64,000 nt of DNA, taken from the NCBI RefSeq assembly GCF_026151205.1, contig NC_087072.1:3243375-3307374 (forward strand), written 5' to 3'. Within the stretch, counting starts at the first letter, position 1. The number at the start of each line of letters is the position of its first letter. The stretch is from Bolinopsis microptera. Taxonomy: Eukaryota; Ctenophora; Tentaculata; Lobata; Bolinopsidae. Shown here piece by piece: positions 6,439 to 57,699 of the stretch. The notes under the pieces are model-generated. The model was given only the letters and a program-made list of their open reading frames with translations, searched no databases and was not told the origin of the DNA. The position numbers and the translations under genes were made by a program.

Positions 6439-6534
6439 AAAACACTTATGTTAGGAACATTGCACACAAATCAGAAATCAGAAATCAGGGCCACCGTTCG
6501 TTGAAAATCAAATGTATACACGATACTGTTATAT

Positions 6535-8942: not shown

Positions 8943-11121
8943 GTAATATATATTTAATGAGTATTACTGAAAATTATTAATCATAAATTACAATGACAAT
9001 TTAGTTGCACAGTTTTATAAATAACCGATAATGTTATTTGTCTTTTTATAAGGCCCTCGTTCCAAAAATGTGTGAAAGAGAATATGGTAGGAGAATTTGG
9101 TATTATAGATGAACTGTAACCCTGAAGACCGTGTCGCTTAGCTGTTTAAAGATAACCAGCTTTATCACTCTGAAATCAACCCAGAACTTACCCAATTTAA
9201 ATTGTCTAAAACTGGTTTTAAATTACAGCATAGTTTAAATTGTATAAATGTTTCATCTCATATGTTATTAATTTAATTTTCCACTCACTCTTCCTGTCTA
9301 ACTGTTTCCAATCAGCATTTCTTGTTTTAGTGGCAGTAATGAATTTGGTTAAACCATCCTCCCATAATTGACCTTATAAACCGATGAATAATTTGTAACT
9401 GCTCTACATATCGTTCTTCACCTTTAGTGGTCGCCTTCTTGGACACTGCTTCATGCCGCCTTCATGCCGACTCTAAAAAAATATTGGGAGCATTGAGGTA
9501 TAAAGATCTTTAGTGTAATTTAGTGCATCTAGAGGAAATCTTGCGAGTTTTCTGAGAGTTTTATGAACTAATTATATAAATCGGGGCTGATAAAACGAAA
9601 TGCTCGAGATCTTGAATATAAATCATATGGTAGGGTATATATATCGCATTCCACAATTTAGGTCCCTGAAATTAGATTTAATTAGGAACCTTGAATCGCA
9701 GTTTCACGGAGCCCAAGATTTTGTGTTTTCAAAGGTTTCATTTCACATCTTACTCCTTATCATATTAATACACCGTTATAATGCACCGTGTTGTCGCTGT
9801 ATCTATATCCGCTTCCTATATCCGCGATCAACTTCATGGCTGGCGTGAAAAAAGTTTTCAAGCCTCGGCTGAGTGGTTTGGATTATTTTTATTGTTTCAA
9901 AACGGAAATTTATTTCCAAAGCAAGACTGATAGTCCGTACGGCAAACCGCTAGTATCGTTAATTCAATTCGCACGAATAAGTTTTTACTCGACCTGTTTC
10001 GATCCTTCTTCTCGGGATTAGCTAGTCATAGTTCTACATTTCTACAATGACTTAGGTAAGACTACAATCGTCTCATAATTAGAAGTAATAAAAAGCCGAG
10101 GAATAAAAATAAAAATCTGTTTCAAGTTTAGAAGGCTATGGACATTGGACCCATATTGTCGGTGATTTTATATTTAACATAATATCAAAACTAGGATGAA
10201 AAATGTCCTAATTATTATGCATCTAGAACTTCAATATCATTGATTATTCGTTGGAACTTTTGACATTGTTCCATTGTTGTTCCAGAACTTTCAAATGTCT
10301 TTTCTTATCCTCCTCCAGCTCCCCCAAAATTACTCTATAAATTGTACTTCCTACCTAACAACTAAATGAGCTGAAGTTCTAACACTTCACAATTAAAATC
10401 TCTAAGAACCTATATTTCTGCTGTGTTTGCGGTTCTGTTGTGCCTGAGGCTTGTTTCCTTAGTTAGTATTTACTGTGGATGTGTATTGTGTACCACACAC
10501 AGTAAATATAAAAAGTACACATTACACATACTAGTTACCAATCAGCAACTCTTCCTCAAGTTTTGTGTGCAGTTAGTATTTGTAGCAGATTTGCTGATAT
10601 GTCTGTAGCATTCTTTAGATTGTACTTTTTACATTATTGATAGCTGCTTAAGATGTAATGGGTTTTAACTTTTAACAGTCTTACAGCTGAATGTTTTTAT
10701 TCACGTACTCTAGTTTGACACGTACACGATTTTTGTGTTGTTTCGTGATCCTATGGCAGGCAATGATGGAACTCATATAACAGTTGCTACACGCTATCGG
10801 ATCACATTCTGGCTCACTGAACGTCATCCACGAGGGATACGGATTGCCGAACTGCAGTACGTGTCGAACTAGGATACTTGTCGAGTACGTGTACCCATCA
10901 TTTAAGCCGCGACCTAGAGAGTATATATTGTTAATTTTAGACTATTGTTCAGATAAGCAGTGCTGGCATGCCCTCAGCACTTGTTGTGCTGCACATTACA
11001 CTTGTGGTGCTGCACACTATTCACTGTTCCTACATTGTGCTTCTTGTTGTGTAAGTAAGACTGGTACCTTTGATGATGAGCCATTCTCACAGAATTCCTC
11101 TTTTTAGCAGATGTGGTAGCC
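8943..11121. other. Intron 6 of the HEAT gene, upstream of the ferroportin-like gene
   Basis: AT-rich; no exon recognised. It should hold the promoter and any 5' UTR of the ferroportin-like gene. A stem-loop (AGTGCTG/CAGCACT) lies at 10959-10981. TTTTTAGCAG at 11101-11110 could be an acceptor for a non-coding 5' exon ending just before the start codon. Confidence 0.4.
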
Positions 11122-24900: not shown

Positions 24901-27900
24901 ATCAATTTTCCCTACCATGTACCATTAATTCTTTTGAGTGAAAAGTGTGACTGGAAAAAAAAGTGCACCATATTTACATACTATGTTTTTATAAATAAGT
25001 GGGTTCGTGCATGGTATAAATTGACGATTTATTTGACCAATGCAGCGCCGCGCATCAACAATAAATGAATCCAGAAAATTGCGGAAAATAACTTTGCGAA
25101 GGAGGAATTTCGATGCAATTAATTAACACCTGGCTAGCGTCGCGCGCAGCATAACAGACGCTTCCTATACACTTAATTATAGGGGAGTGGTCTATATTGC
25201 GAAGGAGCAGACTTTTGTCGTCATCCAAACCCGATTACTTATTCCCTATGATCTTTTTGCCCTTGGCAAGAGTAGGGAAACAAATTATCTTTGTATGTCT
25301 GTATCATGCCGTTACCGCGGGCTTGTAAATATATATAATATAATAAAAAACAAAATGAAACGACCGGTTGAGTCAGACAAATGTTTCAATCATGATACAA
25401 AACCATGATATCATCAGTGACAACTGAGGTATAGGAACTAAAATCAAAATTACAAAGCTAAAATTTAACATAAACAATCACTCGTGAAACAATACTAGGG
25501 GTTAGATGTATGAGTCATTATATTATAAAAGGAATTTCCGTTTATGGCGGCATTTTGTGAGGATTTCCGTCCATGAGTTAAGTAAGTGTGGGTCAGAGGA
25601 TCGAAGTAAGATTTCTAATTTCTCAGACGTGCACAGATCGCAGCTGTTCTGGCCGGCTCTGTATCCGTGTCCACGTCTGATTATTTTCCATTCGATCCTG
25701 AATTCTAACCCACGGTCTTTGAAGGACCAGATCTTCTCCGACAGTTTGGTTCTATTTCGGTACCGCTCCAGGCGAAATGATGACGTGTGCCCGTTGTACC
25801 GGTCCTTGAATGTGCCCTCCGTCATTCCGATGTAGTGGTGCTTCTCATTTTCCGTACGGAGGGTCGCCATGTATACCACAGACTTCGATAGGCACTTTCC
25901 GTCTAGTGGGCAGGAGTTCCTGGAGCGGCAGTTGCACTGCCGTGTGGTGGGTTCCTGGGTTTCCTGGTGCTGACGAAGCAACTGCTTGTTCCGGGATTTT
26001 ATGAGGCATTCCATGTTTTTCATACAGCTGTATGAGACTTTTACACTGTTCCGGTTCAAGATCTTGTGTAGTGGATTGTCCTGAGGGAAGTGTTTCTCCA
26101 ACAGATTGAAGAATTTCCTTCCAACATTGGTCTCCACAGTGACAGAGAAGGGGGGATTGAACCAAAGGACCCTGCGTTTCCTCCTTCTATTACGTGGTGG
26201 TTTTGCCTCGCCTGCCTGGGTGTTGTAGGTCATGCACGAGTCCATATAGCCGCTTGACTTCAAAGCATCCTCGTAGTAAGGCTTGGCGTCGTCGAACACC
26301 TCCTTACAGGAAGATATGCTGTTGATTCGGTCAGCGATCATCTCCGGGATGTTGCGGATGATGGACGGTGGGTGATTTGACTGGCGGTGTACATATTTCG
26401 TTACCTTCTCCGCTTTGCGGAATGGCCGGAGGAGCCATCCGATCGGAAGGTGACGTCGAGGAAGTCAACAGATGTGGATGGTGGGGACACAGTGATCTTC
26501 AAGCCCTCTCTCCGGAATGTAGCAAACAAATCCTTCCGAATCCGCTCCATTCTGGGGCCGGGTGTGTCTGTCAGCATCACGAGTCCATCGTCCCTATAAA
26601 GGCCGTGGGATTGTTGTGGGAGTATATCTCCGATCTGGGATAGTAGGTACACACCAACCAGCTCGCATACTTCTGCGCCGTCGGGGGCACCCATTGTTAC
26701 ATCGAACAGGGAGTCCTTTCTCTGCCAGGTTTCCCCTCGCGGACAGAACAAGAGGGAGAGTCGGCTGTGTTTGATGGTGTCGATGTCTTCCTCTGAGATG
26801 TTGATGTGTTCTTGTGCAAACTGGAGGGCCCTGTCTAGAAGATTCTCACTGATGGAAGGATAGAACGACTCAATGTCGAACTGGAGAAACTGGACATGCC
26901 CGGGTGTACAGTTGGTCTCGAACCAAGAAATAACCTCTCCGGTGCTCCGCCACTGGTTGACAGAGGAAGAAGTACGGAGTTGGGCGGTGAATTTCTCGAG
27001 GATTTTTTTGCTAACTCGTCCAACATCTGACTTGGCTGGATTTATCAGGCGACAAGGAAGGTTAGTAGCGAAATTTGGCTTATGGTCCTTGAGCAGTACG
27101 AATGCCTGGGACGTTTCGAAGCGTTGCATCCGTCCCTTCAGGTCTAAGCGGGCGGCGATGGAGGCTGCCTTATTCTCAATATGCTCTGCGGTGCCTGCGG
27201 GGGCCTTACGATATTCTGCTGTGATGCTGGACTCAATGACTCAACGACTCATTGAGTCCAGCATCACAGCAGAATATCGTAAGGCCCCGCAGGCACCGCA
27301 GAGCATATTGAGAATAAGGCAGCCTCCATCGCCGCCCGCTTAGACCTGAAGGGACGGATGCAACGCTTCGAAACGTCCCAGGCATTCGTACTGCTCAAGG
27401 ACCATAAGCCAAATTTCGCTACTAACCTTCCTTGTCGCCTGATAAATCCAGCCAAGTCAGATGTTGGACGAGTTAGCAAAAAAATCCTCGAGAAATTCAC
27501 CGCCCAACTCCGTACTTCTTCCTCTGTCAACCAGTGGCGGAGCACCGGAGAGGTTATTTCTTGGTTCGAGACCAACTGTACACCCGGCTATGTCCAATTT
27601 CTCCAGTTCGACATTGAGTCGTTCTATCCTTCCATCAGTGAGAATCTTCTAGACAGGGCCCTCCAGTTTGCACAAGAACACATCAACATCTCAGAGGAAG
27701 ACATCGACACCATCAAACACAGCCGACTCTCCCTCTTGTTCTGTCCGCGAGGGGAAACCTGGCAGAGAAAGGACTCCCTGTTCGATGTAACAATGGGTGC
27801 CCCCGACGGCGCAGAAGTATGCGAGCTGGTTGGTGTGTACCTACTATCCCAGATCGGAGATATACTCCCACAACAATCCCACGGCCTTTATAGGGACGAT

Positions 27901-30900
27901 GGACTCGTGATGCTGACAGACACACCCGGCCCCAGAATGGAGCGGATTCGGAAGGATTTGTTTGCTACATTCCGGAGAGAGGGCTTGAAGATCACTGTGT
28001 CCCCACCATCCACATCTGTTGACTTCCTCGACGTCACCTTCCGATCGGATGGCTCCTTCCGGCCATTCCGCAAAGCGGAGAAGGTAACGAAATATGTACA
28101 CCGCCAGTCAAATCACCCACCGTCCATCATCCGCAACATCCCGGAGATGATCGCTGACCGAATCAACAGCATATCTTCCTGTAAGGAGGTGTTCGATGAC
28201 GCCAAGCCTTACTACGAGGATGCTTTGAAGTCAAGCGGCTATATGGACTCGTGCATGACCTACAACACCCAGGCAGGCGAGGCAAAACCACCACGTAATA
28301 GAAGGAGGAAACGCAGGGTCCTTTGGTTCAATCCCCCCTTCTCTGTCACTGTGGAGACCAATGTTGGAAGGAAATTCTTCAATCTGTTGGAGAAACACTT
28401 CCCTCAGGACAATCCACTACACAAGATCTTGAACCGGAACAGTGTAAAAGTCTCATACAGCTGTATGAAAAACATGGAATGCCTCATAAAATCCCGGAAC
28501 AAGCAGTTGCTTCGTCAGCACCAGGAAACCCAGGAACCCACCACACGGCAGTGCAACTGCCGCTCCAGGAACTCCTGCCCACTAGACGGAAAGTGCCTAT
28601 CGAAGTCTGTGGTATACATGGCGACCCTCCGTACGGAAAATGAGAAGCACCACTACATCGGAATGACGGAGGGCACATTCAAGGACCGGTACAACGGGCA
28701 CACGTCATCATTTCGCCTGGAGCGGTACCGAAATAGAACCAAACTGTCGGAGAAGATCTGGTCCTTCAAAGACCGTGGGTTAGAATTCAGGATCGAATGG
28801 AAAATAATCAGACGTGGACACGGATACAGAGCCGGCCAGAACAGCTGCGATCTGTGCACGTCTGAGAAATTAGAAATCTTACTTCGATCCTCTGACCCAC
28901 ACTTACTTAACTCATGGACGGAAATCCTCACAAAATGCCGCCATAAACGGAAATTCCTTTTATAATATAATGACTCATACATCTAACCCCTAGTATTGTT
29001 TCACGAGTGATTGTTTATGTTAAATTTTAGCTTTGTAATTTTGATTTTAGTTCCTATACCTCAGTTGTCACTGATGATATCATGGTTTTGTATCATGATT
29101 GAAACATTTGTCTGACTCAACCGGTCGTTTCATTTTGTATCTAGCTCTCGGCTTGCCGATTGAGCACTGTAAGCAGACGACGCCACCCACAATTATAATA
29201 TAATAAATATAGTCCAAGAATTTCGAACAGCAAATATACTTACTTTATAGAGTTGGCTTTTTTCCAGAGCCAGACAGAAGGTTTAGTGTAAGTCTCCAAC
29301 ATAACCCTAGCCATAAGGTACTCCCAAGTTTCAGACTCGTATCTGTCCAGATCAGGCAGAGGATACTGTTCCAGATTTATCTGAAAATTATTGAAAATTA
29401 CTTCAAATTATAATTTCAAAGTATATATATACACTTTGAAATGATATATCATTTCAAAGCGGAAGATACATGTTCAAGCGAAAATAAAAGTGTTTTCAAT
29501 TTCCGATCCACGTGACTGAAAACCCCTGCTTGAGATAGTATAGGTAAGGGCCTAGGCTATCCATTATCGGTATGAAATCTTTTATCTGGATAAACAGATA
29601 AAAATTTAGGTTTTATCTATAAAAACCGATAAAACCGATAAAACCGATAATTTTTCTGCTGAAGGCCAAAGCCAAAATGTTTTCCAAATTTCACAAAAAC
29701 TGATTGTCGACTTTTATTACTGTTTACCAGCAATCTTGCTAAAGTACAACTTCCTTTCTTTTGAAAATATTAGAGCATCAGTTTTCTTCTCCGGGGAACA
29801 ATAGTGTACCAGTTCTCTTCAAAACAGTAGACCAACGGTTTGTCTTCTCCTAAGAACAGTAGTGTACCAGTTCTCTTCAAAACAGTAGATCACCGGTTTC
29901 CTTCTCCTAAAAACAGTAGTGTACCAGTTCTCTACAAAACAGTAGACCAAGGGTTTCCTTCTCCTGAGAACAGTAAGTAGTACCGCACTGGTTCTCTTCA
30001 AAACAGTAGACCAACGGTTTCCTTCTCCTGAGAACAGTAGTGCACCAGTTCTCTTCAAAACAGTAGACCACCGGTTTCCTTCTCCTGAGAACAGTAGTGC
30101 AACAAATACCAATTCTCCTCGAAACAGTAAAACATTTAAAGTGATTCAGTGAACCGTTTCCTTATCCTGTGGATAACTTGGAGCAACAGATTCCTTCTCC
30201 TGAAGACAATGTTTCACGCCTAGAACACTTACGGAATTTAATTGAGTGCCCTGCCGGTATTTTTGACTCTTGTTAACAGTAACATGCTCGTTCCTGTCTC
30301 CAGAATGGTTATAAGGTAGAACGCCAGCACCCTAGCCTCAAGATAACAATGTCAATAACTTTCTCTAGACTTCTACAGTTCTACAGTTCTACAGTTCTAC
30401 AGTTCTACAGTTCCATAGGTATACAAATGTAAATAAACATTTGTGTAGCTCACATTTACGTAAACTACCTCTTCTATCATACTATTAAAAAAAAACATTA
30501 ATATTTCTTTAAAATTTTACGGTATTGTGGCAGTTTTTTCGGTAATTTCTAGTGAATTTTTATACCGATAAAAATATGTTTTATCTAGATAAACAGATAA
30601 CCCTTTTTAACGAATTATCGGAAATAATTATCGGTAACGATTATCGGAGTGGATAGCCTAGGTAAGGCGTAAGGTATATCAACATTCAATATATCATTGT
30701 ATTTTTAAGGGGGCCGGGGGGGTCTTCATCAAAATTCTCTCGAAATCGACTTTATAGTTGTTTCTGATAGTGGGGAGTGATATCTATCAGCTGCTTTTGG
30801 TCCAATGGAAAAATATTGTTCCTAGCCGAAATTATCGCCGGTCAGAGGTCAGCGCTTATGTGTAATTGTATTGCGCGAGCGATTTTCGATCGCGTGTTCT

Positions 30901-35580: not shown

Positions 35581-35989
35581 GGATAGATACTTGTTTTACA
35601 AAAAGACTTCAAATACCTTTGACCTTACAAAATTGATTGACCTTACAAGATCTAGTCGATACGACTCAAGAATGCTAGTTAAATAGTTTGTAAGTCCTCA
35701 TCTCCATATTACAATTGATGATGAAAATCTTAAAATAACTGGCTACAATGAGCATTTTATTAACAATAAATAGTAAAGTTCAAAACTTCAATTTCCAAAA
35801 GACTAATAATTTTAAATACCTACCTAACAAAATTACACCCCGTTAAAACGTTATAAGACATCAGTAATTGAGTACAAAGTTAAAAATTTTAACAATTTCT
35901 ACACTTCAAAATTAAATTTTTTTTATTATCTAAATCATTCCACATCCACTTTATGTAGACTCCGCTGCTCCCTTCCAGAATTTCTACAC

Positions 35990-36587
35990 CAACAATTATA
36001 TTATACCCTGTTCGAATCACATCTTTCCTACTGTATATCTGTATGGGGTGGGGCAGCGAAGCAACGTATAAGCTCATTATTTACTGCTCAGAAGTACTGT
36101 CTCAGAGTACTATTTGGTGATAGACTGGCGTACCTTGATAAGTTTTAAGACTTGTGCACGTACTAGGCCTATAGGACACCAGAAACTAGACCAAAAATTC
36201 TTCATAAAAGAGCACACCAAACCGATATTTAAGCATAATAATATTCTAGCTATACAAAATCTATATACATACCACAGTTACCTCGAGCTCTACAAGATAA
36301 TGAAATTCCGTGCTAAAATATCCTTACATGAGGGTTACACATGTTCATCAAGGAAACCCTGCCTTCTAATCTGTCAGGCAGACCCACCTGACAATCACAA
36401 CACTAGATCAACCAAAATTTTTAACATCTTAACCCCAAAGTTCAGAATGACTGATTTTACTACTAGTGTAATGTGCTTGCGAGGAAAGCTAAAACGTGCG
36501 CTACTAGCTAATCAACATAACCACGCCCTGCTTGATTGGACCGTAAAAGACTTTGACTGCACAAATATTATTTTCCAAACATTATAA
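35990..36587 (+). pseudogene. LINE ORF2 C-terminal remnant
   Basis: Readable in two frames: LYYTLFESHLSYCISVWGG then, after a shift near 36110, FKTCARTRPIGHQKLDQKFF, IKEHTKPIFKHNNILAIQNL and YLELYKIMKF, ending at 36587. This matches the C-terminus of the LINE ORF2 at 40934-44302 (SHLGFGISVWGG, RTCARTRPFGEQRLG, LLELFKI) at moderate identity. It is 5'-truncated and frameshifted. Confidence 0.8.
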
Positions 36588-38476: not shown

Positions 38477-38657
38477 CACATGTAACATGCATGTTTTATT
38501 TTATAACATCTTATCTTATAACATATATTAAACCTTGACTAGCTTGCTAGATTAATATTCGATTTTTTTAATACTTTCAACACTACTATATAACAAATAA
38601 TTTGAGTGTTCAGGAATGGTATGTTACAACTCCCCCGAAGGGGCGTACTAAGCTAAG

Positions 38658-38718
38658 GGTCATCTACACTCTATTAGGGTCATCTACACTTTACTAGGGT
38701 CATCAACTCTGAAGTCCT
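38658..38718. repeat. 20-bp tandem repeat, three copies
   Basis: AGGGTCATCTACACTCTATT, AGGGTCATCTACACTTTACT and a shortened third copy. It lies directly before the ORF1 start of the large LINE and may belong to its 5' UTR. Confidence 0.75.
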
Positions 38719-38796
38719 AATCCCCTCCAAAACAAAACACTTAACGGGAGCCGACCCCAAGTCGGATCTATTTGGTCAGTATTACTTATATTTGAT

Positions 38797-40965
38797 TTGA
38801 GAATGGCGACAAATAGGAAGAATTCAGGTACTCCTAAAACATCTAATAGCTTGTCTCGCAACATTTTAGCTGAATCTACAGTGGACAATGAAGATCAGGA
38901 AAACAGGAAACATAGGGACAAGAAGAAATGTCCATGTCAACGCTCTTTTAACGGTAAAGTTTACCTCATTGACTGTTCTAAGTGTCATCAAGAGTGGCAT
39001 GTGGACTGCTTGTCTATGAAGGGTATAACGAGGTCAGCTATCAACTCCATGGTAGAATGGCTGTGCCCATACTGCTTCGTGGCACCAGTATCAACACTGA
39101 AGAAACAGAGAGGTGAATTTGTTACAGCTGCAGGAACACAAGGGCTTTGCAACAGGCCAACTCAGATTTTGAAGCATCTACAGCTGTTAAGAATCTCGAA
39201 ACTGTCAGTGCACTCGTGGCATCAGCAAGCTCAGCAGGCTCAGCTCTTGAAAAATTTGACTTCGAACAGTTCTCTAGGAACCTTGACACTCTCTCCCAGT
39301 TCGACGTTCACCTTCAACACCTGCTTCTTAAAGAGAACTCCCTTAATGGGCTAAATAATGAAATAAAGCTTCAGGGACAAATCATTAGAATCAATCAATA
39401 CTAATATTGCCGAACTTCAGAAGGACCTGAAACTTCTGTCATCCAGACCATCTACAGAACCATCCTCACCCTCAGCTTCATCTGAGCAGTTTCTGAAGGA
39501 CATCTCTGAACAGCTCACTGTACTCTGTGCCAATGAGCACACTGCAGCTGCAGGCATAAGTGAATTGAAACAATCCTTAGACTCATTACAGCCATTGCAT
39601 AATCCTGGCCCCTGCATTCCTCCCACCCCATTGCATCCAGGACCTCCTACTCAGCACCTTCGTTCTCCAGTCCCTACAGTCCCTGTGCAGCTATCCAATC
39701 ATGAGCAGAAACCTGTGGAAATGTTCAAAGATGACTACATTGATCAGCAAACAGCAAATGATTTAGGAGAACTTTTTGTTAAGGACAGCAGTCACTTCAA
39801 AGTTGAGAACGACCGCTCCTGCCTAACATATGGGGAAAGGTATGATTACCCAGGTTCCAAGTCATCTGAAAAGCCACAGGCAATACCATCGGTTCTCAAG
39901 GAACTCATTGACAAAATCAATAATGAGTTCTGCCAGGGTGATCTACCTCAGATCAACAGCTGCTTAGTAAATCGGTTTGAAGGAACAGACAGCAAGCTAC
40001 CTAGACACTCTGATGACGAGGCTACCATCCATCCAGAGTCTAAAATATTTACTGTCTCGCTTGGTTCTGCATGTCAGGTTTCTTTCTCTGACTCTCACAC
40101 AGGCACTGATAAGCACAAGCAGCAATGTGACCCACGGTCCTTGTATGTTATGACACGTCATAGCCAAGCACTGTTCGACCATCGTATTGATGCAGGTGAT
40201 ATAGAAGGGCTACGTTACAGCATCACACTTAGATCCGTGAATTCGTTGAACAGAAATGCCACATGCATCATCGGGGATTCAAACACTGGAGGCTTGAAAT
40301 TTGGTACTGATCCTGCTAAGTCATTCGGCAAGTGGTTACCTGGCAAACGCATCTTCGCTCCGGTCATTGATAATATAGATCCTTATGTCACGTTGGGGTA
40401 TAGAAACTGTGTAATATTGTGCGGGGTCAACGACCTCAAAAACGAAGACGTCAAGAACCAACATGACATTGAAATTATTTATAACGCATTAGCTTCAAAG
40501 ATTGCACAGATACAATCTGTCAATCCGTGTATACATGTTTTTGTTTGTCCAGCAATTCCCTCTAAACGTGCTGACTAAATAGAAAACTTATATATTTTAA
40601 CAGTTTGATTCGACGTAGGCTGCTCCCGTCCAATTTTGGTGTCAGTTATGTGGATGGATTTGATGAGTTCTGTGATAGAGATGGTCTTACTTGACCGCTC
40701 TCTCTCTCGCGACCTCAACAAACACCAAAAACCAGACTTCCTTCACCTCAACTGGAGGGGACTAGCAAAGTTAGGTCAATTTATTCGTAACACTGTTCTT
40801 CTCAGGATTAACGGTGGTATCGACAAAAGGAAGAGGAGGTCCACAAAGGTAGACAGTAGATCCTTCAGGGATGTGACTGCTGGAAGAGAAACTGGTCCTG
40901 TTGTTCCTGCTGCTGCTAGTCAGGGTCACGTGGATGGCTACCAACCACATGACTCCCCTCATTAA
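38797..40965 (+). pseudogene. LINE ORF1: PHD finger, AlkB-like dioxygenase, SGNH esterase (four frame changes)
   Basis: Start ATG at 38797. Residues about 44-95 form a PHD-type finger (CPCQRSF, CSKCHQEWHVDC, CPYC). After a Ser/Gln-rich, coiled-coil-like middle, an AlkB-family 2-oxoglutarate/Fe(II) dioxygenase domain is clear: LVNRFEGTDSKLPRHSDDE with the metal pair H and D (codons 40006 and 40012), the distal His in LFDHRID (40180) and the 2-oxoglutarate-binding RYSITLR (40213-40233). An SGNH esterase follows: IIGDSNTGG, CGVNDL and, beyond two frame changes, DFLHLN. The frame changes near 39130, 39375, 40575 and 40690; otherwise the frames are free of stops. It ends at TAA 40965, overlapping ORF2 by 32 bases. 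PHD and esterase domains are known from CR1-type ORF1; the AlkB-like part is the unusual piece. Confidence 0.85.
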
Positions 40966-43900
40966 GGAGGTATGTCTTGTCTGTTCTAAGAACATAGTCA
41001 TCGGCCAAACAATAGTTGAATGTTTCCACTGTGACTGCATAATGCACCATAAATGCTATCGCAAATCCAATACAAATAGCCAATCTAATGGGTTTTACTG
41101 TACTCGTTGTATCCATTTAGACAAGGTTAAATACAACCCATTTAAACTACTCACTGACAATGACAACGACGACAACAACCTAGACGAATACACAACCAAA
41201 ATCTCGAATACTTTAAATAATTGTAACTCATACACTGCATCTGACCTTACCAATATTCTCTGCAACCAAGTAAAGAAACAATCATCTATTCTCTTTCAAA
41301 ATATTGATGGAAATAAATCAAATTTTGACAACCTTGCCATTGAAACCTGTAGGTACAAAACAAAATTCTCCGTAATAGGCCTAGCTGAAACCAACACTGG
41401 GAAAGAATTAAGCAACCTATTTCAGCTCGACGGTTATAATAGTTACTATCAGGACACAGCACCTAACAAACAAAAGGGCACTGGAGTAGCCCTTTATGTT
41501 GACGATAGATTAAATGCTACAGTAATTGAAAATATATCACAAGTCACAGAAAATCTAGAAATACTTGTCTTATCATTAAGTAACGAAGATCAACCTGTTA
41601 ATGTAGGTGTTTTGTATCGTCCACCAAGTGGCTGTATTTCCCAAGCTCTAGTTGAACTTTCTAACCTTCTTGATCACATGCCGAAGTTTAGTTATCTAGC
41701 TGGAGACTTTAATATCGATCTTCATGATAAAGATAACAAAAATGTACAAAAATATGAAGAAATATTGTTCAGTAAAGGATTTTGTCCGTTAATATCTATT
41801 GCTACTCACGAAAAACCAGGCTGTAAAGCATCTTGCATAGACAACATAATTACCAACGACATTGAGAATGTTATTACTTCAGGCACCCTAAAAGAACGAA
41901 TAACTCACCACTCGCCTATTTTTAACATATTTAACTGGAATGTTGAAGTCAACTCTGGAAAAACTTCTATTAAACAGTATTACGATTTCTGTCAATCAAA
42001 TGTTAACGGCTTCCTAGTGGATCTTGAAGATGAGCTTAAAACTAAAATAATCCATAACTTTACTGAATTCCATGACACTTACAAAAACTGCATCGAAAAA
42101 TCGTTTAAACTAGAAACCCCGAAAACCTCTAAGAGAACTGTTAAGGTTAACCCTTGGATAACTCCCGGTCTCATTTGCTCAATTAATAATCAGCATAAAC
42201 TGTACGAAAATTGGGTTGAGATAAGAAATAGAAAATGTAAACTCGGGGAAACTGATAACAAGGGCGGGATTTGCCAGTGCCCTGAATGCTCACTAAAACG
42301 TAGTCGCTACCTTATCTACAAAGAATACAGAAAAGTCCTAAAGAAAACACGTCAAACAGTGAAAACAGATTACTTCTCTGGTAAATTTGCAGAAAATAGC
42401 GGGAATAGTAAAAAGACCTGGGAACTAATTAATAGTATAAGAGGAAAACGGCGGCGTGAAATAAAGCCGCTGTTCACCATAGACAACGTTAAGATAACGA
42501 ACAGGAGGATCATAGCAAACGAATTCAATAAGTATTTCGTATCATTGGCCTCTGACCTAAATACTGCTTACAATGAACTTGGTCAAATGAACATAAACAA
42601 TCTACCTAGTTTCTATGACTATTTACCGCTCTCAAACACCTCCAGCATTTACATGCATGACTGCACAACAGACGAGGTTAGCAAAATCATATCTGAACTT
42701 AAGAACGGTAAGGCAAGTGATATTCCTATTCATGTTGTAAAACAGTCCTCAAAAATAGTCACTCCTCTACTTACTGTACTGTACAATGAATGTATGAAAG
42801 ATGGCATATTCCCTGATGACCTTAAGATTGGAAGGATTAGTCCAATTTACAAGAAAGATAACCAGGAACTCCTTGAAAATTATAGACCTGTGTCGACACT
42901 TGCAGTATTTGGTAAAATATTTGAAAAAATTATATTCAACAGATTATATAGCTTCTTTCATTCACAGAATTCCTTGTATGAAAACCAGTACGGATTCCGT
43001 AAAAATCATTCGACTAGTTATGCTTTAAATTACTCAGTTAACCACATAGAATCACGTCTCAAGAAAAAACAACACGTACTTGGAATATTTATTGATCTTA
43101 GCAAAGCTTTTGATACAATCTCACATGAAAAGTTACTGCATAAGTTAGAAAATTATGGGATCCGTGGAAATGCAAACAACCTTATAGCAAGTTACCTGTC
43201 GAATAGATACCAGTATGTCTCAGTATTAGGTGAAGACTCTGAGAAACTGCCCGTTGTCTACGGAGTGCCCCAAGGGTCCTGTTTAGGTCCCCTGCTGTTT
43301 ATCATCTACATAAATGACATCCGAAACTCATCAATTATAGGAACGTTTATACTATTTGCCGATGACACTAACATATTTATTGAAGAAACATGTGTCAGAA
43401 GACTGTACGAAAAGGGAAATGAAGTTTTAGCATCTGTTTATAAGTATATGAAACTAAACTTATTACATATTAACATTAAGAAATGCTGTTTTATCCACTT
43501 TAGACCGTCACGTGCCAAAGAGGAAGTAGAAAATGACGAGAACATATTAACTTTGAACAATGTTGTCATTAAAAAAGTCCAAGAAGCTAAATTTCTAGGT
43601 GTCATTATCGATGATCAACTTAATTGGAAAACTCACACACGGTCACTTAACTCAAAACTTAAATGTGAAGTAGGTAAGTTATGCAGAATACGACACATTG
43701 TCCCTAAACAGTATTATAAGGATTTATACCATACTTTATTCGAATCACATTTGGGATTTGGAATATCTGTATGGGGTGGTATTAGCAACAACCGACTCGA
43801 ACCTCTCTTTAAAACACAGAAAAAGTGTATAAGAATTCTATTTGGGGATAAAGAAGCTTACTTAGAAAAATTTAGAACTTGTGCCCGGACACGACCATTT

Positions 43901-44302
43901 GGTGAGCAAAGACTAGGTGTGGACTTTTACAAAAAAGAACACTCTAAACCCTTGTTTAAGAATCAGAAATTGTTAACTGTTCACAACCTGTATAAGTACA
44001 CTTGTCTCTTAGAACTATTCAAAATTAATAAGTTAGAGGAACCATTATCACTGTACTCATCATTTAACAGGTCACCACGACGAGAGGATTATTTCATCAC
44101 ATCACAACCATCCTCACAATTCATCTACCAATCATCCTACATGTGGAACAGCTGTCGACAAACATCAAGTAAGATAAGTTTTAATACTCCGACAAACGGG
44201 TTTAAGAATACATTGAAAATTGCTTTACAAGAATTGCAATTCAAGCATGATACACTTGATTGGTGTGAGCTTAATTTTGCCACGAATAAGCTCAAGTTTT
44301 GA
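40934..44302 (+). CDS. LINE ORF2: zinc finger, APE-type endonuclease, reverse transcriptase (intact)
   Basis: An uninterrupted frame of about 1122 residues from ATG 40934. The N-terminus has a PHD/RING-like finger (VCLVCSKN, CFHCDCIMHHKC, YCTRC). The endonuclease shows LAETNTG, LYRPPSG, YLAGDFNID and ITHHSPIF. The reverse transcriptase shows ENYRPVSTL, NQYGFRKNHST, GIFIDLSKAFDTISH (motif A), GVPQGSCLGPLLF and the catalytic LFADDTN. A C-terminal region with FRTCARTRPFGEQRLG and HNLYKY is shared with other LINE fragments here. The combination fits the CR1/L2 group. With an intact ORF2 and a lightly damaged ORF1, it is a fairly young copy. The exact 5' and 3' ends were not located. Confidence 0.95.
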   Translation: MATNHMTPLIKEVCLVCSKNIVIGQTIVECFHCDCIMHHKCYRKSNTNSQSNGFYCTRCIHLDKVKYNPFKLLTDNDNDDNNLDEYTTKISNTLNNCNSYTASDLTNILCNQVKKQSSILFQNIDGNKSNFDNLAIETCRYKTKFSVIGLAETNTGKELSNLFQLDGYNSYYQDTAPNKQKGTGVALYVDDRLNATVIENISQVTENLEILVLSLSNEDQPVNVGVLYRPPSGCISQALVELSNLLDHMPKFSYLAGDFNIDLHDKDNKNVQKYEEILFSKGFCPLISIATHEKPGCKASCIDNIITNDIENVITSGTLKERITHHSPIFNIFNWNVEVNSGKTSIKQYYDFCQSNVNGFLVDLEDELKTKIIHNFTEFHDTYKNCIEKSFKLETPKTSKRTVKVNPWITPGLICSINNQHKLYENWVEIRNRKCKLGETDNKGGICQCPECSLKRSRYLIYKEYRKVLKKTRQTVKTDYFSGKFAENSGNSKKTWELINSIRGKRRREIKPLFTIDNVKITNRRIIANEFNKYFVSLASDLNTAYNELGQMNINNLPSFYDYLPLSNTSSIYMHDCTTDEVSKIISELKNGKASDIPIHVVKQSSKIVTPLLTVLYNECMKDGIFPDDLKIGRISPIYKKDNQELLENYRPVSTLAVFGKIFEKIIFNRLYSFFHSQNSLYENQYGFRKNHSTSYALNYSVNHIESRLKKKQHVLGIFIDLSKAFDTISHEKLLHKLENYGIRGNANNLIASYLSNRYQYVSVLGEDSEKLPVVYGVPQGSCLGPLLFIIYINDIRNSSIIGTFILFADDTNIFIEETCVRRLYEKGNEVLASVYKYMKLNLLHINIKKCCFIHFRPSRAKEEVENDENILTLNNVVIKKVQEAKFLGVIIDDQLNWKTHTRSLNSKLKCEVGKLCRIRHIVPKQYYKDLYHTLFESHLGFGISVWGGISNNRLEPLFKTQKKCIRILFGDKEAYLEKFRTCARTRPFGEQRLGVDFYKKEHSKPLFKNQKLLTVHNLYKYTCLLELFKINKLEEPLSLYSSFNRSPRREDYFITSQPSSQFIYQSSYMWNSCRQTSSKISFNTPTNGFKNTLKIALQELQFKHDTLDWCELNFATNKLKF

Positions 44303-46042
44303 TTAATGTGAGTTACTAAAATAACCACTTATCTTTCCTCATACATGCAACCACTGCACTCCAACTAAACACATTATTTACCACAGTCCACACACCATAC
44401 TCCACAGATGATATATTTATATATACACACAAACACACTAGTACCGAACAATTGCACTGTAAAACATGCTCACGATACACTCAAAATTAGAAATATTCGG
44501 CTCGTATATGAAACTTAGCGACTTACACTCAGTGTACACCCAGTGTTAACCAGTATTACACACTAGTAAATTCTACGTAACGCGCGAAAACAATAATTCT
44601 GTAGCGTTTTCATTGTCACATTTCACGTCGACGGGATTAAACGCGCGCGCGCGTAACAACTTATCTTACTGCTAACTCAGCGACTAAACACACAACGACT
44701 TTGACATTTGACAGATGACTAAACAATTGTGAGTTATGACGGACTTAACTGTATGGGTCAACTACTGAAACTATATTGTTTACTATCTTATTCATTATAC
44801 TGGACATGAGATGACGAAGTATCTTAAGCAGCACTTTATACCCCCACTTAGAACTTGATTAGTCACGAACAATAGAATCATCAAAAACCAATACAATAAA
44901 ACATCTTGATCAATAAATGCCTAGCAGCACCAGACAGCAGCCGTGTACCTTTTTCGACTCCGTGGAGTCCCTGATGGACTTTTGTTTACTTTTGTTAATA
45001 ATCGGACTAACCTTTCTTTCTCGAAACATGCATCCTATTGTATTTCATTATAGTATTAAGATGTGAAGATATACTAGATATTACAACGAAATAGAGGTAT
45101 ACCAAATTGGCCCTTGATATGAACTATAACCGTGTTGATGGTTTTAAATTTTGTATGTTGTAAGCACTTTAGTTTGTGAAGCGTTTACTCCTCCCCCTCA
45201 GCAAGACAGCTAGATTATAGATTAATGATAATAATTGTCAAATGTCGTTATATATTATATAACAGTTATAAATGTTCAATAGTTGTAGAGCGACTTCAAG
45301 AGTAGTGGTCCACAGGGGTCCGAAAAAGCCGTACAGGCACTTGGGTCCTTATCCTTGTCACTAATCTCAATTGGATTCGGTTTACACAAAGCATGAACAT
45401 TTAGACGTACACATTGACACGATATTTATTAGAAAGCAAAAAGTATAAAATAATACGTGCGTGCGCGGCTTGAGCCGCGCCGCATAAGAACGGATGCGTG
45501 CAGGGGCTGGAGTACGCTTGTATGTAAATTAATGAAATGTTGCATTGTAAATATTTAGAATTGACGATATATTTTGATCTAAAAGTAAATTTTACAAAGC
45601 TGGCTTTGGATTTAGGTAAGATTATAATTTATTTTTAAAAAAACCACGGATAATTTTAAATGTATTTCTATTTGTCGTATAATCATAAACAATTTAATCA
45701 TGTTTTTAAGAATGCGCGGCTTTGGCGGCCAGTTATTGACTTATACATTAAATTGAATTTTAAATAGAAATGTGAATATATTAAAATTTAAAACTTTCAA
45801 AACGGAGGCTTATAAATATTATTATATTATGATTGTAAAATAAAGGATAAAATTTTAAATTTGTTTCACTAAAAAATTTGTTTCACTTTTCCACAAAGAA
45901 GAACCTTGGAAAAAATAGGGATTGACGTGCCAAGCTAATAACCTAAGCTGTATGTTTTTATGTATGTACAAAATAATTACAAACTAATGAATACTGCACT
46001 GTGTGTTATGGATGAGTTTCAATGTGTCAAGGCGAACATTGT
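44303..46042. other. Interval without a supported gene
   Basis: Probably begins with the LINE 3' UTR. The rest is AT-rich with a CG-alternating tract near 44641-44656 and a GCGCGGC segment near 45460-45490. No exons recognised. Confidence 0.4.
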
Positions 46043-46150
46043 GAGTAAAACAAAATTTTTTTTTTTTAGTAAAACAAAATTTTTATTTACCACAAAACAA
46101 TCAATACATATTTAATATTATTATACATTTACAAATAAATCTATTAAATT
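46043..46150 (-). mobile_element. LINE 3' end fragment with duplicated AGTAAAACAAA tail
   Basis: GAGTAAAACAAAATTTTTTT followed by a second AGTAAAACAAAATTTTTATTTA and then CAATCAATACATATTTAATA. The same arrangement (AGTAAAACAAAGTATTTT twice, ATTTATTAGC, CAATCAATTCATATGATATA) ends the LINE insertion at 54310. On the minus strand both are 3' ends of the same LINE family. Confidence 0.55.
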
Positions 46151-46834
46151 GAGCTATATACACAATACACAGCCCGCCGCGCAGACAGCCACACATTTCT
46201 GAGAGATTCTCAGGTGCAGATGTAAGCGCCGCGCGCGCGAGGTTTGTTATCTTACAATTACATGTCACGATATATTATTAATTATCAGAGAATTTTAGCA
46301 GCAAAATAATAGTTGCATATTGGGAAAATTTCGGTCGTTAACGCAGTACAGGGCGTGGACACTGCAATGCTAATAACGGACAATTCTGAGGCACGAATTT
46401 CATTCAGCTACCCAATTTATATGTGACATGTACTTGTATTAAATTCAGATAAATGTTAGCAACAATCGACGTTAACATCGTGCAACTGTAAACTGCAAAA
46501 TATTAACGTCGATGATTATTAAATCACATCTAGCAAGTTACTAATTGTTTGCACTATATATGTTACGTCACTATAACATATGTCATTCATATTGTACGTT
46601 ATATAAGATAAAAATAAACATTTTATAATTGTTTCAATGTTCAACACTGCTAAAAAAACAAATACCTACTTGCCCATCGATTAAGCAGTCGCCAAAACAA
46701 GGCTCAATGTTAATTTACCTTCACACCTCGTTTTGGAGACTGAAGGATGTCAATAAATAAATAAATAATGGATAATATTAATACTGAATATGATGGATAA
46801 TCAGTAATATCAATAAAATCCACAATCACTAATC

Positions 46835-46985
46835 ATGTTTTCGATGGGCAAGCACTCGCAACTGGATGCTAAAACAAACGGCGCAAGTCTTGCACCGTTC
46901 ATGCAGCATACGTCGCGAGATATGATGAGCTCCGCTAACTCTGCGATTCTAACGGATGAATTGGGCTCCCCCGACAGAAACACAG
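46835..46985 (+). CDS. Possible first exon of an unidentified gene
   Basis: From ATG 46835 an open, GC-richer stretch codes for MFSMGKHSQLDAKTNGASLA through DELGSPDRNTG and reaches a GTAATA donor at 46986. I recognise no domain and could not find a following exon. The opposite strand is also open here, so this could equally be chance or an old repeat. Confidence 0.2.
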
Positions 46986-47585
46986 GTAATAGGGGGTTGT
47001 GGAAGGACACGAACACTGTTCGTTAACTCGTACCCCGGGTACCCCCTATATAGATCTATGTCCCGCCGGAGAGAGCCCACCACCAGTCATATCGAAAGCA
47101 GCTTTTAATTCTGCATTATAAATATCGCGTCGTCATAATAAATAATATACATTACCAATTACCACTACACACTTGTCACTACACACTTTTATGCACAGTA
47201 CAACTAAAATATTAACAAGAGACAGAAGAGTTTTACATCGGCTCAGCACCGCAAGGACGTTGGCTATACGCGTGGTTCATAAATTAGTTTGATTTGGGTA
47301 CGGTTCGACCGGGAAAGTGGTCGGGATTAGTTCTCATAATGAGTGATCACTGTCGTCAGAAATATTAGAGCGGGAACCTCCCCAGGTTCCGGATGAAACG
47401 CGCACAGTATTTAGAGTATCAGCGCGCAATGCTGTGCGCGTTCCCATATTGTTTTATCATTCGGCGATCGCGTTCAACGTGACTGGTGAGGAAGTGCTAT
47501 GTTGTTTACCTAAATTCAAGCATGGTATCCATAGATAAGATTATCAGTCAGTAAGTAGGAATAACAGGCAAGTATCACTTCTCAC

Positions 47586-47861
47586 TCAGAATTCAGTGAA
47601 ATTTTTGTCACACCAATCAGTTCCATACCTGTTTTGAGCTCTTAGAAGTGACTGTTTAAGCAAATTCTTGACAGAGCTGCAAGGGGAGGTGAAATTCATC
47701 GGCCCAACTTTACGAAATTCGTTCCACAGCCATGCAGATTTGTACATAAATTGATTAGTTGGAGAGGGCGTGATTAACAAATTATCTTTCCTATTTGATA
47801 AGCCGAATAGGTAGTATAACGAAATTGGTACTCGTGACTTAATGATCTTAAACAATTCCAT
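47586..47861 (-). pseudogene. 5'-truncated LINE C-terminus
   Basis: MELFKIIKSRVPISLYYLF, FMYKSAWLWNEFRKVGP and GTDWCDKNFTEF-stop resemble the end of the ORF2 at 40934-44302 (LLELFKINK, QSSYMWNSCRQ, DTLDWCELNFAT). The copy begins abruptly at about 47865 with only the last 91 codons kept. Confidence 0.75.
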
Positions 47862-47879
47862 TAAATTTCATTTAAATAT

Positions 47880-53453: not shown

Positions 53454-56400
53454 CTAGATACATTGGCTAGTGTTGGGTGGGATCATGAATTTATCGTAAG
53501 AGTTATCCCCTTGGTAATTCTCATCAGTTAGCACCATATTCATAAGAGTTTCTTTGTATAACTTAGAAAATTTCTTAACGTCATCACACTCTCTAAGGGA
53601 CTTTGGTAATATGTTCCAGGCCTTAGTTCCTAGATAGTTAAACTCCTTGTGAGATCTTGATTTAGGAGTATAAAGATTGCAGTTTTCTGCCTCACGTGAT
53701 CCACCAGAAATATACGAGAATTTCCCGATAAAATGCTTTGGACATGTTTCATTGATTATACGGTACATATATGAGCTAAGATGAACCTGTCGTCTCAAAT
53801 GGAGAGGAAGCCATCCCATATTTTTGTATACATTAACCGACCTCTCTCCGATGTTTACATCTAGGGCTATTTTAGCAACCTTTTTGTACATGATATCTAA
53901 CTCTCCTAGTCGTTTTTTATATGTTCTTGACCAGATGGTGTCTAAGTAGTCAAAATGTGGCAACATAAGTGCATTAGCAAACATCTTCCTGAACTTAAGA
54001 GGGAGAAGTTTTTTTGATCTATACATAGCACCAATTCTTTTGGATATCTTTTTCTTAATGTTATCAATATGTTCATTAAATGTCAATCTGCTGTCAACTA
54101 TAAGTCCAAGGTACTTATGGGATTTAGTTTCACAGATTACCAAAGTAAGGTCATCACAAATTTCAACAAGGATGGCATCAAGGTTAGGCTTAGAGTCAAG
54201 GATCATTAGTTTTGTTTTTTCATTATTCAGGGATAGTTTATTAGCCTGAAGCCATCTGATAACTAATTTCAACTCTTGTTTGATGTTACCATAGTTTCCT
54301 CTAGATAGTAAAACAAAGTATTTTTTAGTAAAACAAAGTATTTTATTTATTAGCAGTGCAATCAATTCATATGATATAATTATAAGAATATAATAGTATG
54401 TCACACCTATTTAACTGTTACGTTTGAGTAGTCGTGCCTTGGCTAAATCTAACTAGGACCAGTGGTGTCGATTAACATTTAATAGGTGAGTCTAAGTGAC
54501 ACAAATGGAAAATTTTAAGAAAAGACGGATCAAAACACAGATCCAAGGACAAGGAGACCCCACTGCAGGACCATACATGCTATTGGCTTGTGCATGGCCC
54601 GAAAAGGTTCCAGTTGTCCGGGAAACTGTACGTACTGGTCAACTAGTTTTGAATTTAGACTAGGCTTGATTTGTTCTGGGGTTTCTAGAGCTGAGGTAAG
54701 ATTTGATGGTGCCAGGTTTGTTCAGGCGGACATGGAAATTATGCGATGAATATATAGGTATATAAAAATCATATCAATATAAAAATAGATCCAAAAATAG
54801 ATCCAAAGATTCACACGGCAGTCAGGGAACTTCCAGACAGAATGCTTTTGAAACAGGTATAATTAGCGCTTTTGTAATTAATTGTATGCAAGGGATGGGA
54901 ATTGGGATGCTGATCAACTAAGCTGGTTCAATGCCCCAGCTATTTAGGGGGAGCCACTCAATTTCACGCCCAGGTGTTGTCAATTGCTGGGTTTCCAGTA
55001 ACAGCTTTTTGATACGGCTCTTGATAATTGAGATGGGGGAGGAAAGGTCGGAAAATTTACTAGAGCCAGGGACCATGACATTGTTTTCATTAAGAGTGCA
55101 TTTGTCGAATATTTTATCAATCAAACTGTTCCATATAGTCGTACCTTTGACGACAAAATTGTGTTTAGAAATGTCAAGTTTGTGTCGGGGGACCCGCATA
55201 GTTTGGCTACATGTTCTGGAACTTGTCAGAGAGATGGGTTGATGCAGTTTCAAGATTTTAAACAGTTCAGTGGATATATGTTGGATGTACAGGTTGTGAA
55301 TTGACATGATTTTCTCGGTATTGAATATTGGCTTAGTGTTTTCCAAAGCAAAGCTCCTTTTTGCGATGTGTTCACTGTATGGTCTTGCAATATATTGTCA
55401 AAATATAATGCACCGTCATCAGCAAATAGATAAGGTTTAGAAAATAGGCATGCATTAGGCAGGTCATTGATAAAAATGCTGAATAGAATTGGTCCTAATA
55501 TACTTCCTTGAGGCACTCCAGAGTTCAATGAATGTAAACTGCTTATCCTACTCCCAACTCTAGTTTGCTGTAATCTATCTGTGAGGAAGCTCCTAAACCA
55601 GCTCAATGCAGTATCTTTTATTCCATAATGCTTCAGCTTTTGAATGAGAATATCATGGTTAACAGTATCAAATGTCTTTCTGATGTCCAGACGAAGATAA
55701 TTGCAGGATGCTTGGCGCTGTTCTTAGCAGTAAATATACGATCAAACAGATCTAACATGAGATAAGTTGTAGAGTGATCTTTACGGAAACCATACTGATG
55801 CTCTGAAAGTATTCCCTTTTCATCAAGATATTGAGTCAGTTGGGAGTTCACACAAAATTCGATGCACTTTCCAAGAATCGGTAAAATTGAGATTGGTCGA
55901 TAATTACTAGGATTCTCAGTATCACCATCCTTATGGATTGGGGTGACTTTTGCAACCTTGCAGCTGTTTGGCATGATGCCACTGGATAAACTCAAATTTA
56001 CAAGATGTGTTAATGGAGCAATAAATGCAGGTAAAATTTGTCTAAACACTCTCAATGGTATATGATCATTAGTGGATTTGCTACAAGGGATACTTGCCAC
56101 ATAGTCTAAGATATTGGACTCAGTTATTTCAGTAAAGCTATTCAAGCTGGTCTCGTTGTCAATCTGCTCATTTTGTAGATAAGATAGAAATTAATTTTCA
56201 TTTTCCAGCTGCACTTCTGCTTGGATCTTTGGACCTATTTCAGCAAAATATTTATTGGTGGTTTCAGCATCAAGATTGTTATTGATATTGTTAGCTTTAA
56301 CAGGCAGATTTGATGCTGTCTTTATCGTTTCCCATACACCCTTTAGATCATTCATGGCACACTTGGCTTTCAGTTCTGTTGCTAAGTTAGTCTTCCTATT

Positions 56401-57561
56401 AATTCTAGACAAATAGGTTGAATAGTTTCTCTGCCGTTTATATGCCATCCATAATGAGTCACATTTATTACAGTGTATAAGACCATTTGGATGTATACGT
56501 CTGTTCTTGTTGTGTGTTAAAAATTTACGGTAAAGTTTCCCTTTCAATTTCTTACTTTCTAAAAATTCTGGAGATGGCTTATGGATGTAATCACTATGGC
56601 ACTTAATTTGTTTAATTGGACAGAAGTGATCATAGTAGTGATCAATATGTTCGTTTAAACCATCAACTGCATCATTCAGACTAGTTGAATCTATTATTGG
56701 TCTATAATCACAAGTTTCCAAAAATTCTTTAAGAGCAGTAACATTCATTTTGCTGTGATCTCTTATTAGTAACTTCTTGAATTTTGAGGCCTTATGCACA
56801 TTGAAATCGACAATGAACTTTACGACCTGATGATCTCCTATACAATCATCAAGGACTTTGCAGTCAAGAAACTTGGAGTAAGTGTTTGTTATGACAACAT
56901 CGATTGTGGTCTTTGTGATTCTGTTTCCTAGTTTAGCAATGCGGGTAATATCCTGAACTACCTGTACCATTCCAAACATTTTCATTGTAATGTCTAATTT
57001 CTTATAGTTCATACTGCTGATGTTGTTTTGGTCTACATTTACATCACCCAGCCAAATAACATTCTTACTTCCTATACTCATCATGCAGTCTGTCATATAA
57101 TCTAAAAATTTGTCAAGAGGACTAAACAACTCAGATCTGTAGAAATAGCAGATGAAAATATTGCAATCTGTAAGATGGATCCAAATAGCCTCGATTTGGT
57201 CATATTGCAAAACTAAGTTTAGTTGAATCATTTTAAACTTTATGTGCTCACTGATGAGAATGCCACATCCCCCATGACCATTGTCGTTAGGACGGTCTTT
57301 GCGGATAAAAGTAAAATTCTTGGGTAGGTTTAGACTGGCTGAGTCAATATCCGACTTAAGATTTGTTTCATTCAGGCATAAAACATCTAATTTCTCTTTC
57401 CAGATTAGATCTTGGATTTCAAGACATTTTGGCATACCTGTTAGTCCTCCCTGCATGTTGCAATGTCCCACTGCAAGCTTTTTGGCATGGTATGAAACTG
57501 TGATTTTACTAATGCACGGGTTAATGCAAGAACTGCTGTGAGAGCATGAAAATTTTTCCAA
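53454..57561 (-). pseudogene. LINE ORF2 (endonuclease and RT), split and decayed
   Basis: Minus strand. 57561-56191 encodes the endonuclease (VGHCNMQGGL, LCLNETNLKSD, WLGDVNVDQNN, CIGDHQVVKF). A TAA at 56193-56191 interrupts an otherwise continuous frame; the RT resumes at 56145 (TPIHKDGD, NPSNYRPISILPILGKC, EHQYGFRKDHSTT). A frameshift near 55685 leads to 55606-55380 (SGVPQGSILGPILF, YLFADDGALYFDN). There another LINE is inserted; the RT then continues from about 54310 to 53454 (WLQANKLSLNNEKTK, HKYLGLIVDSRLTF, LGTKAWNILPKSLR). A (TAAA) tract at 52836-52858 may be its 3' tail. No ORF1 was recognised. Confidence 0.85.
54310..55375 (-). mobile_element. LINE 3' fragment inserted into another LINE
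   Basis: Starts in IAKRSFALENTKPIFNTEKI near 55375 and codes, to 54918, for a LINE C-terminus (IMSIHNLYIQH, ELFKILKLHQPISL, GTTIWNSLIDKIF). A 3' UTR of about 600 bases follows and ends at 54310 with AGTAAAACAAAGTATTTT twice. It separates the FADD motif of the host LINE from its next segment (SRGNYGNIKQEL). Confidence 0.75.
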
Positions 57562-57699
57562 TTTATGCTGCTATAAACTTGTCAGTAAGACTTGTCAGTA
57601 AGACTTTCTATACACTTAACAACGTTTCCTTGATCAGACCTAGCCATCCCCTAAATGATTTTAGCCACCTTTAGTAGTTAATGTCCTTGTATTGTAAAA

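Follow-up and report, generated by a model that had tools for sequence, protein, structure and literature searches.

An ALKBH2/3-like AlkB dioxygenase domain joined to an SGNH esterase in ORF1 of a ctenophore LINE, a candidate demethylase for the element's own nucleic acid

Why should a retrotransposon carry an enzyme of the type with which cells free the bases of DNA and RNA from damaging methyl groups? The question is raised by a long interspersed nuclear element (LINE) in the genome of Bolinopsis microptera, a member of the ctenophores, for which a position as sister group of all other animals has been argued. The window, i.e., the whole stretch of DNA that was analyzed, comprises 64,000 nucleotides of the forward strand of contig NC_087072.1 (assembly GCF_026151205.1, positions 3,243,375 to 3,307,374), and all coordinates below refer to it. 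An original prediction, made from the letters alone, had placed an AlkB-like 2-oxoglutarate (2OG)/Fe(II) dioxygenase between a PHD finger and an SGNH esterase in the first open reading frame (ORF1) of this element and had proposed that an RNA or DNA demethylase is encoded by the retrotransposon itself. Our analysis favors, by a modest degree of belief, a LINE ORF1 protein in which an ALKBH2/3-like AlkB dioxygenase is joined to an SGNH esterase and clears N1-methyladenine (m1A) and N3-methylcytosine (m3C) from the nucleic acid of the element.

The AlkB-type domain extends from 39694 to 40251 on the plus strand, which also carries all other features of the element. As predicted, the motifs are found in one single frame (39367-40578), in which LVNRFEG (39964-39984), HSDDE (40006-40020), FDHRID (40174-40191) and RYSITLR (40213-40233) are followed by the SGNH motifs GDSNT (40273-40287) and GVND (40423-40434). 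HSDDE contains the metal ligands His and Asp and then an acidic residue, which we take to occupy the position of D135 in AlkB and E175 in ALKBH2; FDHRID provides the distal metal-ligand His and RYSITLR the 2OG-binding Arg pair. A significant match to the AlkB family had been set beforehand as the test of the prediction, and PF13532 (2OG-FeII_Oxy_2) matched the window with an E-value of 4.4e-15 and 56.9 bits, compared to a cut-off of 31.2. The structure predicted for the window's translation with a 60-row alignment reached a pLDDT of 93.8 and a pTM of 0.89, and the model shows the double-stranded beta-helix fold of AlkB. The best 50 structure matches all belong to the AlkB family, in Foldseek and in VIA-align alike, which rules out a chance motif match. 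ALKBH3 and ALKBH2 were top-ranked in the Pfam, PDB-profile and fold comparisons, with 18-24% identity in the structural alignments.

Alignment with other genomic copies revealed that the domain is part of a complete LINE of about 7.3 kb (38566..45888), and the region 38797-40965 of the original prediction corresponds to ORF1 of this longer element. One other copy, at locus L009, is 99.67% identical to it across 7,331 bp. The 5' boundary lies at 38565-38568 in the alignments of L009, L011, L012 and L014, at 38551 in that of L010 and further in for other copies, and the 3' boundary lies at 45887-45888 in the alignments of L009, L012, L013 and L014. The element ends with a short repeated ATTTGTTTCACT motif and not with poly(A), long terminal repeats (LTRs) are absent as the 5' and 3' ends differ, and no clear or convincing target-site duplication was found in the window flanks at the element ends. 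The assignment as LINE is based on the presence of two ORFs and on an endonuclease and a reverse transcriptase (RT) in ORF2, with the endonuclease match below the cut-off in the window. In detail, ORF2 (40934..44302) overlaps the end of ORF1, as it does in relatives, and consists of an N-terminal Cys/His finger, an apurinic-type endonuclease (Exo_endo_phos, E-value 3.8e-4, 20.7 bits, below the cut-off of 24.5) and the RT (RVT_1, E-value 5.4e-37), whose domain at 42851..43609 served as probe for a genome search. The 3' untranslated region with the terminal repeat (44303..45888) was delimited by copy alignments and by reading of the end. The short repeat tail together with the PHD finger is only suggestive of the CR1 or L2 clade, and an Rfam scan of the window at gathering thresholds gave no match. 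Two 3' fragments of LINEs related to this element are also located in the window, at 46061-47865 (minus strand), which shares 96.6% identity with the 3' portion of locus L028, and at 35951-36554 (plus strand).

ORF1 (38803..40965) is interrupted by small indels in the window copy, and an open frame of 709-751 amino acids (aa) is present in 18 of 20 fetched relatives (L009-L028, picked mostly for long open frames; L004 equals L009 and L006 equals L010); both ORFs are open in 11 of these 20 copies. For comparison we aligned 17 ORF1s from diverged subfamilies, which were picked for long frames and not for motifs and share 33-97% identity with the first sequence; the 33% row is the chimeric locus L027 and the remaining rows have at least 38%. 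The domain order is PHD finger, Cys motif with coiled coil, AlkB dioxygenase and SGNH esterase, so that the predicted flanking of AlkB by PHD and SGNH holds for the order and for the conserved SGNH blocks, although both domains remain below the Pfam cut-off in the window copy. For the PHD-type zinc finger (38929..39075) the match is weak there (E-value 2.4e-4, 21.5 bits, cut-off 24) and 7 of the 17 ORF1s are matched at an E-value of 0.01; C75, C88 and C91 of the alignment are invariant and H96, C99, C118 and C121 nearly so. The Cys motif and a predicted coiled coil (approximately 39100..39690) are based on the sequence and on long helices in the model of the homologue P0003. The SGNH hydrolase domain (approximately 40258..40812), whose frame is broken in the window copy, gave a sub-cut-off E-value of 0.039, and even in the open copy L009 the curated cut-off was not reached (28.0 bits, cut-off 32.9). 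At an E-value of 0.01 or better it was matched by 14 of the 17 ORF1s, in all of which S523, N573, D675 and H678 of the conserved GDSN, GxND and DxxHLN blocks are invariant, and an ORF1 profile matched the esterase of a zebrafish LINE ORF1 protein (ORF1p; 4c1b) with an E-value of 8e-4.

The indels in ORF1 of the window copy would fit a chance capture or a pseudogene, in which AlkB is an accidental passenger. This explanation is practically negligible in view of the other copies in the genome. A search with the ORF1 frame of the window, for which 103 of 902 candidates were scored, yielded at least 104 matches down to 41% identity, some of which are pieces of one copy and one of which is the window itself, and the diverged subfamilies contain open frames. 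A protein search identified 61 relatives in public sequence sets, which may include the same species, and 59 of them match PF13532; the same domain is also found in other LINE families and a Helitron, as described below. PF13532 was moreover matched at an E-value of 0.01 or better by all 17 aligned ORF1s, and the one-off capture, which the original prediction had named as its possible failure, is thereby refuted. In a further search with the RT probe (best 150 of 5,939 candidates scored), we picked by eye 65 copies whose ORF2 frame is 1,100 aa or longer, and at least 43 of them have an AlkB ORF1 among the matches listed within 5 kb upstream. In one of the 22 copies without such a listed ORF1 (C12:11581254), an AlkB match lies 5.3 kb upstream. 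Reading of seven of the 22 showed that the ORF1 homology breaks off within the esterase part in four copies and within AlkB in the other three, which still hold the end of AlkB, and that the 0.76-1.15 kb further upstream of these stops contain no ORF1. All seven breaks look as they would after 5' truncation, with an insertion at this position as alternative, and no complete ORF1 lacking AlkB was met among the copies read (7 of the 22 without a listed AlkB). Outside of these sequence sets, scanning IMG/VR contigs for the LINE AlkB profile produced 10 pattern matches, none of which was confirmed, and a phage collection gave no match. The 1,003 aa ORF1 of L027 (L027:759-3767) was considered as a case of a new domain and rejected: its N-terminal part is the start of an L050-type ORF2, and for this reason we regard L027 as a chimeric insertion of two LINEs fused in frame, with an ORF1 of the F subfamily.

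Seven residues of the AlkB domain are invariant among the 17 aligned ORF1s: the metal ligands H432, D434 and H490, the 2OG-binding R501 and R507, the acidic E436, and N420. The 60-row alignment, which combines the window with 59 of the 61 database proteins (P0035 and P0048 left out) and was made without a motif filter, retains the first His and the Asp in 59 of 60 rows each, the Glu in 58 of 60, and the distal His and both Arg in all 58 rows that reach this far. P0055 lacks His and Asp, P0054 lacks the Glu, and the Asn of NxY is replaced by Thr in 10 rows and by His in one. A further set of 75 segments carries the AlkB motif throughout (75/75), a count that is partly given by construction, because the segments were chosen by a pattern requiring H.D.E and R...T.R. 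The set lacks eight of the 61 database proteins: P0035 and P0048 have neither motif nor PF13532, P0054 and P0055 have PF13532 without H.D.E, P0002 and P0061 are truncated, in P0042 the Thr of the pattern is Ala, and in P0001 another letter is changed. A comparison of subfamilies A and B resulted in dN/dS values of 0.166 for AlkB, 0.106 for SGNH and 0.081 for ORF2. The AlkB value of the G1/G2 pair is also 0.166 (estimates for the A/B and G1/G2 pairs are about 0.15-0.17), that of the close pair A1/A2 is 0.271, based on few changes, and the LINE pair D/H was saturated. In other elements, AlkB values of 0.136 (LINE2 pair), 0.060 (LINE4 pair) and 0.159-0.182 (Helitron-type pairs) were obtained. These computations on sequence pairs show that the AlkB domain is under purifying selection, and the alignments show that its ligands and the acidic pocket residue are kept in diverged copies.

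It is conceivable that a captured host repair domain is retained for nucleic-acid binding only and without catalysis. LINE ORF1 proteins need nucleic-acid binding, neither an RRM nor a CCHC knuckle was found among the Pfam matches of the window ORF1 or of the 17 relatives' ORF1s, and the loss of the HxD pair in P0055 would fit such a role as well. We nevertheless consider this very unlikely, because pure binding would tolerate the loss of ligands, whereas metal and 2OG ligands are present in nearly all rows, including copies down to 41% identity, and the domain is under purifying selection. A demethylase is the better reading, since it is the ligands for metal and 2OG that are conserved under this selection.

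The combination of AlkB and SGNH was predicted for one LINE and was indeed found there, but several further LINE families and a Helitron carry it as well. A search of the same genome with PF13532 (best 150 of 587 candidates scored) yielded at least 151 matches, all of those listed above the cut-off, including many further repeated ORFs. AlkB together with SGNH blocks is encoded in ORF1 of the families L034/L040, L035, L036/L037, L039/L042, L041 and L046, which have endonuclease or RT frames downstream; the SGNH part has sub-cut-off Pfam support in L034, L035, L040, L041 and L046 and was recognized by eye in L036/L037, L039 and L042. In L036/L037 a coiled coil is located between AlkB and SGNH. 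A second LINE of the window (53454-57570, minus strand) has an ORF2 that shares about 50% identity with the L034 family; this LINE is broken and has no recognizable ORF1 upstream. Furthermore, an ORF of 3,388 aa (L033:1883-7900 with L060:2-4246) contains SGNH (E-value 7.4e-6, under the cut-off), AlkB (4.1e-21) and DUF6570, and SGNH and AlkB lie upstream of Helitron_like_N (3.2e-19) and a PIF1 helicase (3.5e-22). With a Rep-type N domain and a PIF1-type helicase in one ORF, the domain content identifies it as a Helitron, and four more loci (L038 and L043-L045, of which the AlkB parts were read) share its AlkB type.

In the AlkB tree, LINE1/1k/5 with the database relatives, LINE2/3, LINE6 and the Helitron type are on one branch (98/95), apart from the host and human ALKBH3 and ALKBH2. 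LINE4 was unplaced in this later tree, and an earlier tree had grouped it with the mobile AlkBs at 95/80. In the tree of ORF2, LINE1/1k/5 and LINE2/3 were recovered too, with LINE4 and LINE6 as long branches of unsure place. As both trees recover the same LINE groups, the association of AlkB with its LINEs appears to be long-standing, and there seems to have been at least one exchange of AlkB between LINEs and Helitrons, or separate captures. We do not claim a single origin, because the AlkB trees have long branches and contain no more than five cellular AlkBs. Recent copying from ALKBH3 or ALKBH2 of the host was rejected as source, as these trees, with their five cellular sequences, long branches and the unplaced LINE4 of the later one, separate host and human ALKBH2/3 from the mobile AlkBs. 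The genome also contains host-gene-like AlkB ORFs at L029, L030 and L031, one ALKBH2-like and two ALKBH3-like by tree, and an SGNH-type ORF is located near L031.

What would such an enzyme remove? The acidic residue after HxD is presumably a substrate-related position in the AlkB family. The titles of the PDB entries 4nii and 4nig describe AlkB D135 mutants bound to N6-methyladenine (m6A), so this position is changed in the m6A-bound enzyme, and it is kept acidic in 58 of 60 rows here. Because of this residue and the ALKBH2/3-like fold, we infer that m1A and m3C are more plausible substrates than m6A. The alternative is an anti-silencing eraser, which removes regulatory methylation set by the host (m6A on element RNA or its DNA counterpart 6mA on element DNA) and not blocks to reverse transcription. 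It would suit the chromatin reading known for PHD fingers, and the presence of AlkB in elements with RNA and with DNA intermediates is compatible with a mark on either. In line with this, an orchid Ty3/Gypsy AlkB is reported to demethylate m6A RNA in vitro, and escape from silencing has been proposed for it, as far as the available part of that report goes (PMC9289625). We regard the alternative as fairly unlikely, as the nearest folds of the model seem to be ALKBH3 and ALKBH2 and not ALKBH5 or FTO, and the retained acidic residue fits m1A/m3C better. The demethylase of the original prediction remains the best reading of the conserved ligands, although the m6A named there is less favored than m1A and m3C.

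For the clearing of m1A and m3C we assume the following course. ORF1p would coat the RNA of the element, with PHD finger and coiled coil serving assembly, and the AlkB domain would oxidatively remove methylation of the Watson-Crick face (m1A, m3C) from the single-stranded nucleic acid. A single-stranded stage is common to LINEs and Helitrons, and the removal of methyl groups would unblock reverse transcription in the former and the copying of single-stranded DNA in the latter. The SGNH domain may be used for handling of the ribonucleoprotein or of membranes, by analogy to proposals for other LINE esterases. According to the accessible sections of one study, both m1A and m3C disturb reverse transcriptases and are removed by AlkB, and m1A impedes the retrotransposon-derived R2 RT of OTTR, where the gain was modest for intact tRNA and clear for 3' halves (PMC12140624). 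As selection kept the enzyme intact in several families, our data suggest that cleaning or unmarking of their own nucleic acid is required for these elements to spread. A conserved dealkylase in ORF1 of several LINE families and in a Helitron would mean that transposition can be genuinely hindered when single-stranded nucleic acid is chemically modified. A more far-reaching idea, which we consider unlikely, is that AlkB and SGNH form a shared "eraser" cassette of ctenophore mobile elements, retained by unrelated classes (several LINE families and a Helitron) because mobile single-stranded nucleic acid receives base methylation from the host or through its chemistry. If true, SGNH would perhaps remove acyl groups too, and the cassette would be an animal counterpart of anti-restriction that predicts an unknown methylation-based defence against transposons.

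The window also contains sequences apart from these elements. Two closely similar frames on opposite strands (25523-27240, minus; 27283-28965, plus) with RT-like and GIY-YIG-like parts look by eye like an inverted pair of a Penelope-type element. Likewise recognized by eye were a ferroportin-like transporter ORF (11080-12723, plus) and a long ORF that resembles a receptor (3466-6450, minus) and combines tandem cysteine-rich repeats with an Ig-like part.

The AlkB family, LINE esterases and ORF1s with PHD fingers are already known, and the roles of LINE ORF1 beyond RNA packaging are poorly understood. A literature search on AlkB in non-LTR retrotransposons and ORF1, covering titles and the beginnings of abstracts, returned the orchid LTR element and no LINE with AlkB, which does not establish absence from print. 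The text of Metcalfe and Casane (2014), who analyzed 448 ORF1s of the Jockey superfamily, does not contain the words "dioxygenase" or "2OG", and its available part reports esterase ORF1s only in vertebrate L2/CR1 groups (PMC4120745). Among these systems, the esterase-type ORF1p of zebrafish ZfL2-1 (CR1/L2) resembles the ctenophore protein in its coiled coil and SGNH esterase, but no AlkB is described for it in the portion of the source at hand (PMC3905857; PDB 4c1b). SGNH or GDSL proteins recur in unrelated mobile elements, such as the GDSL ORFs of bdelloid retroelements (PMC5408684) and the texim SGNH genes adjoining fish Helitrons (PMC4021074). The texim genes are separate and contain introns, whereas in B. 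microptera SGNH and AlkB share a long ORF with Helitron_like_N and PIF1, and the excerpts of both reports describe no AlkB (PMC4021074, PMC5408684). Plant RNA viruses of the Alphaflexi-, Betaflexi- and Closteroviridae, as cited in the accessible text of PMC9289625, are likewise infectious elements with their own AlkB, although they are set apart by description, with a different genome type and the replicase as carrier gene. From ALKBH3 and ALKBH2 themselves the domain described here differs in that it is part of a LINE ORF1 polyprotein, shows the structural-alignment identity given above and is separate in the tree. A further parallel is the Phalaenopsis Ty3/Gypsy element with its retrotransposon-encoded AlkB domain, active on m6A RNA in vitro; as outlined in the available part of that paper, this is an LTR element with a separate extra ORF of ALKBH5/ALKBH9-like type (PMC9289625), unlike the ALKBH2/3-like domain in a LINE ORF1, which is fused to PHD finger, coiled coil and SGNH. 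With the elements of B. microptera, the transposons that bear AlkB include animal LINEs and a Helitron in addition to the plant LTR elements described before.
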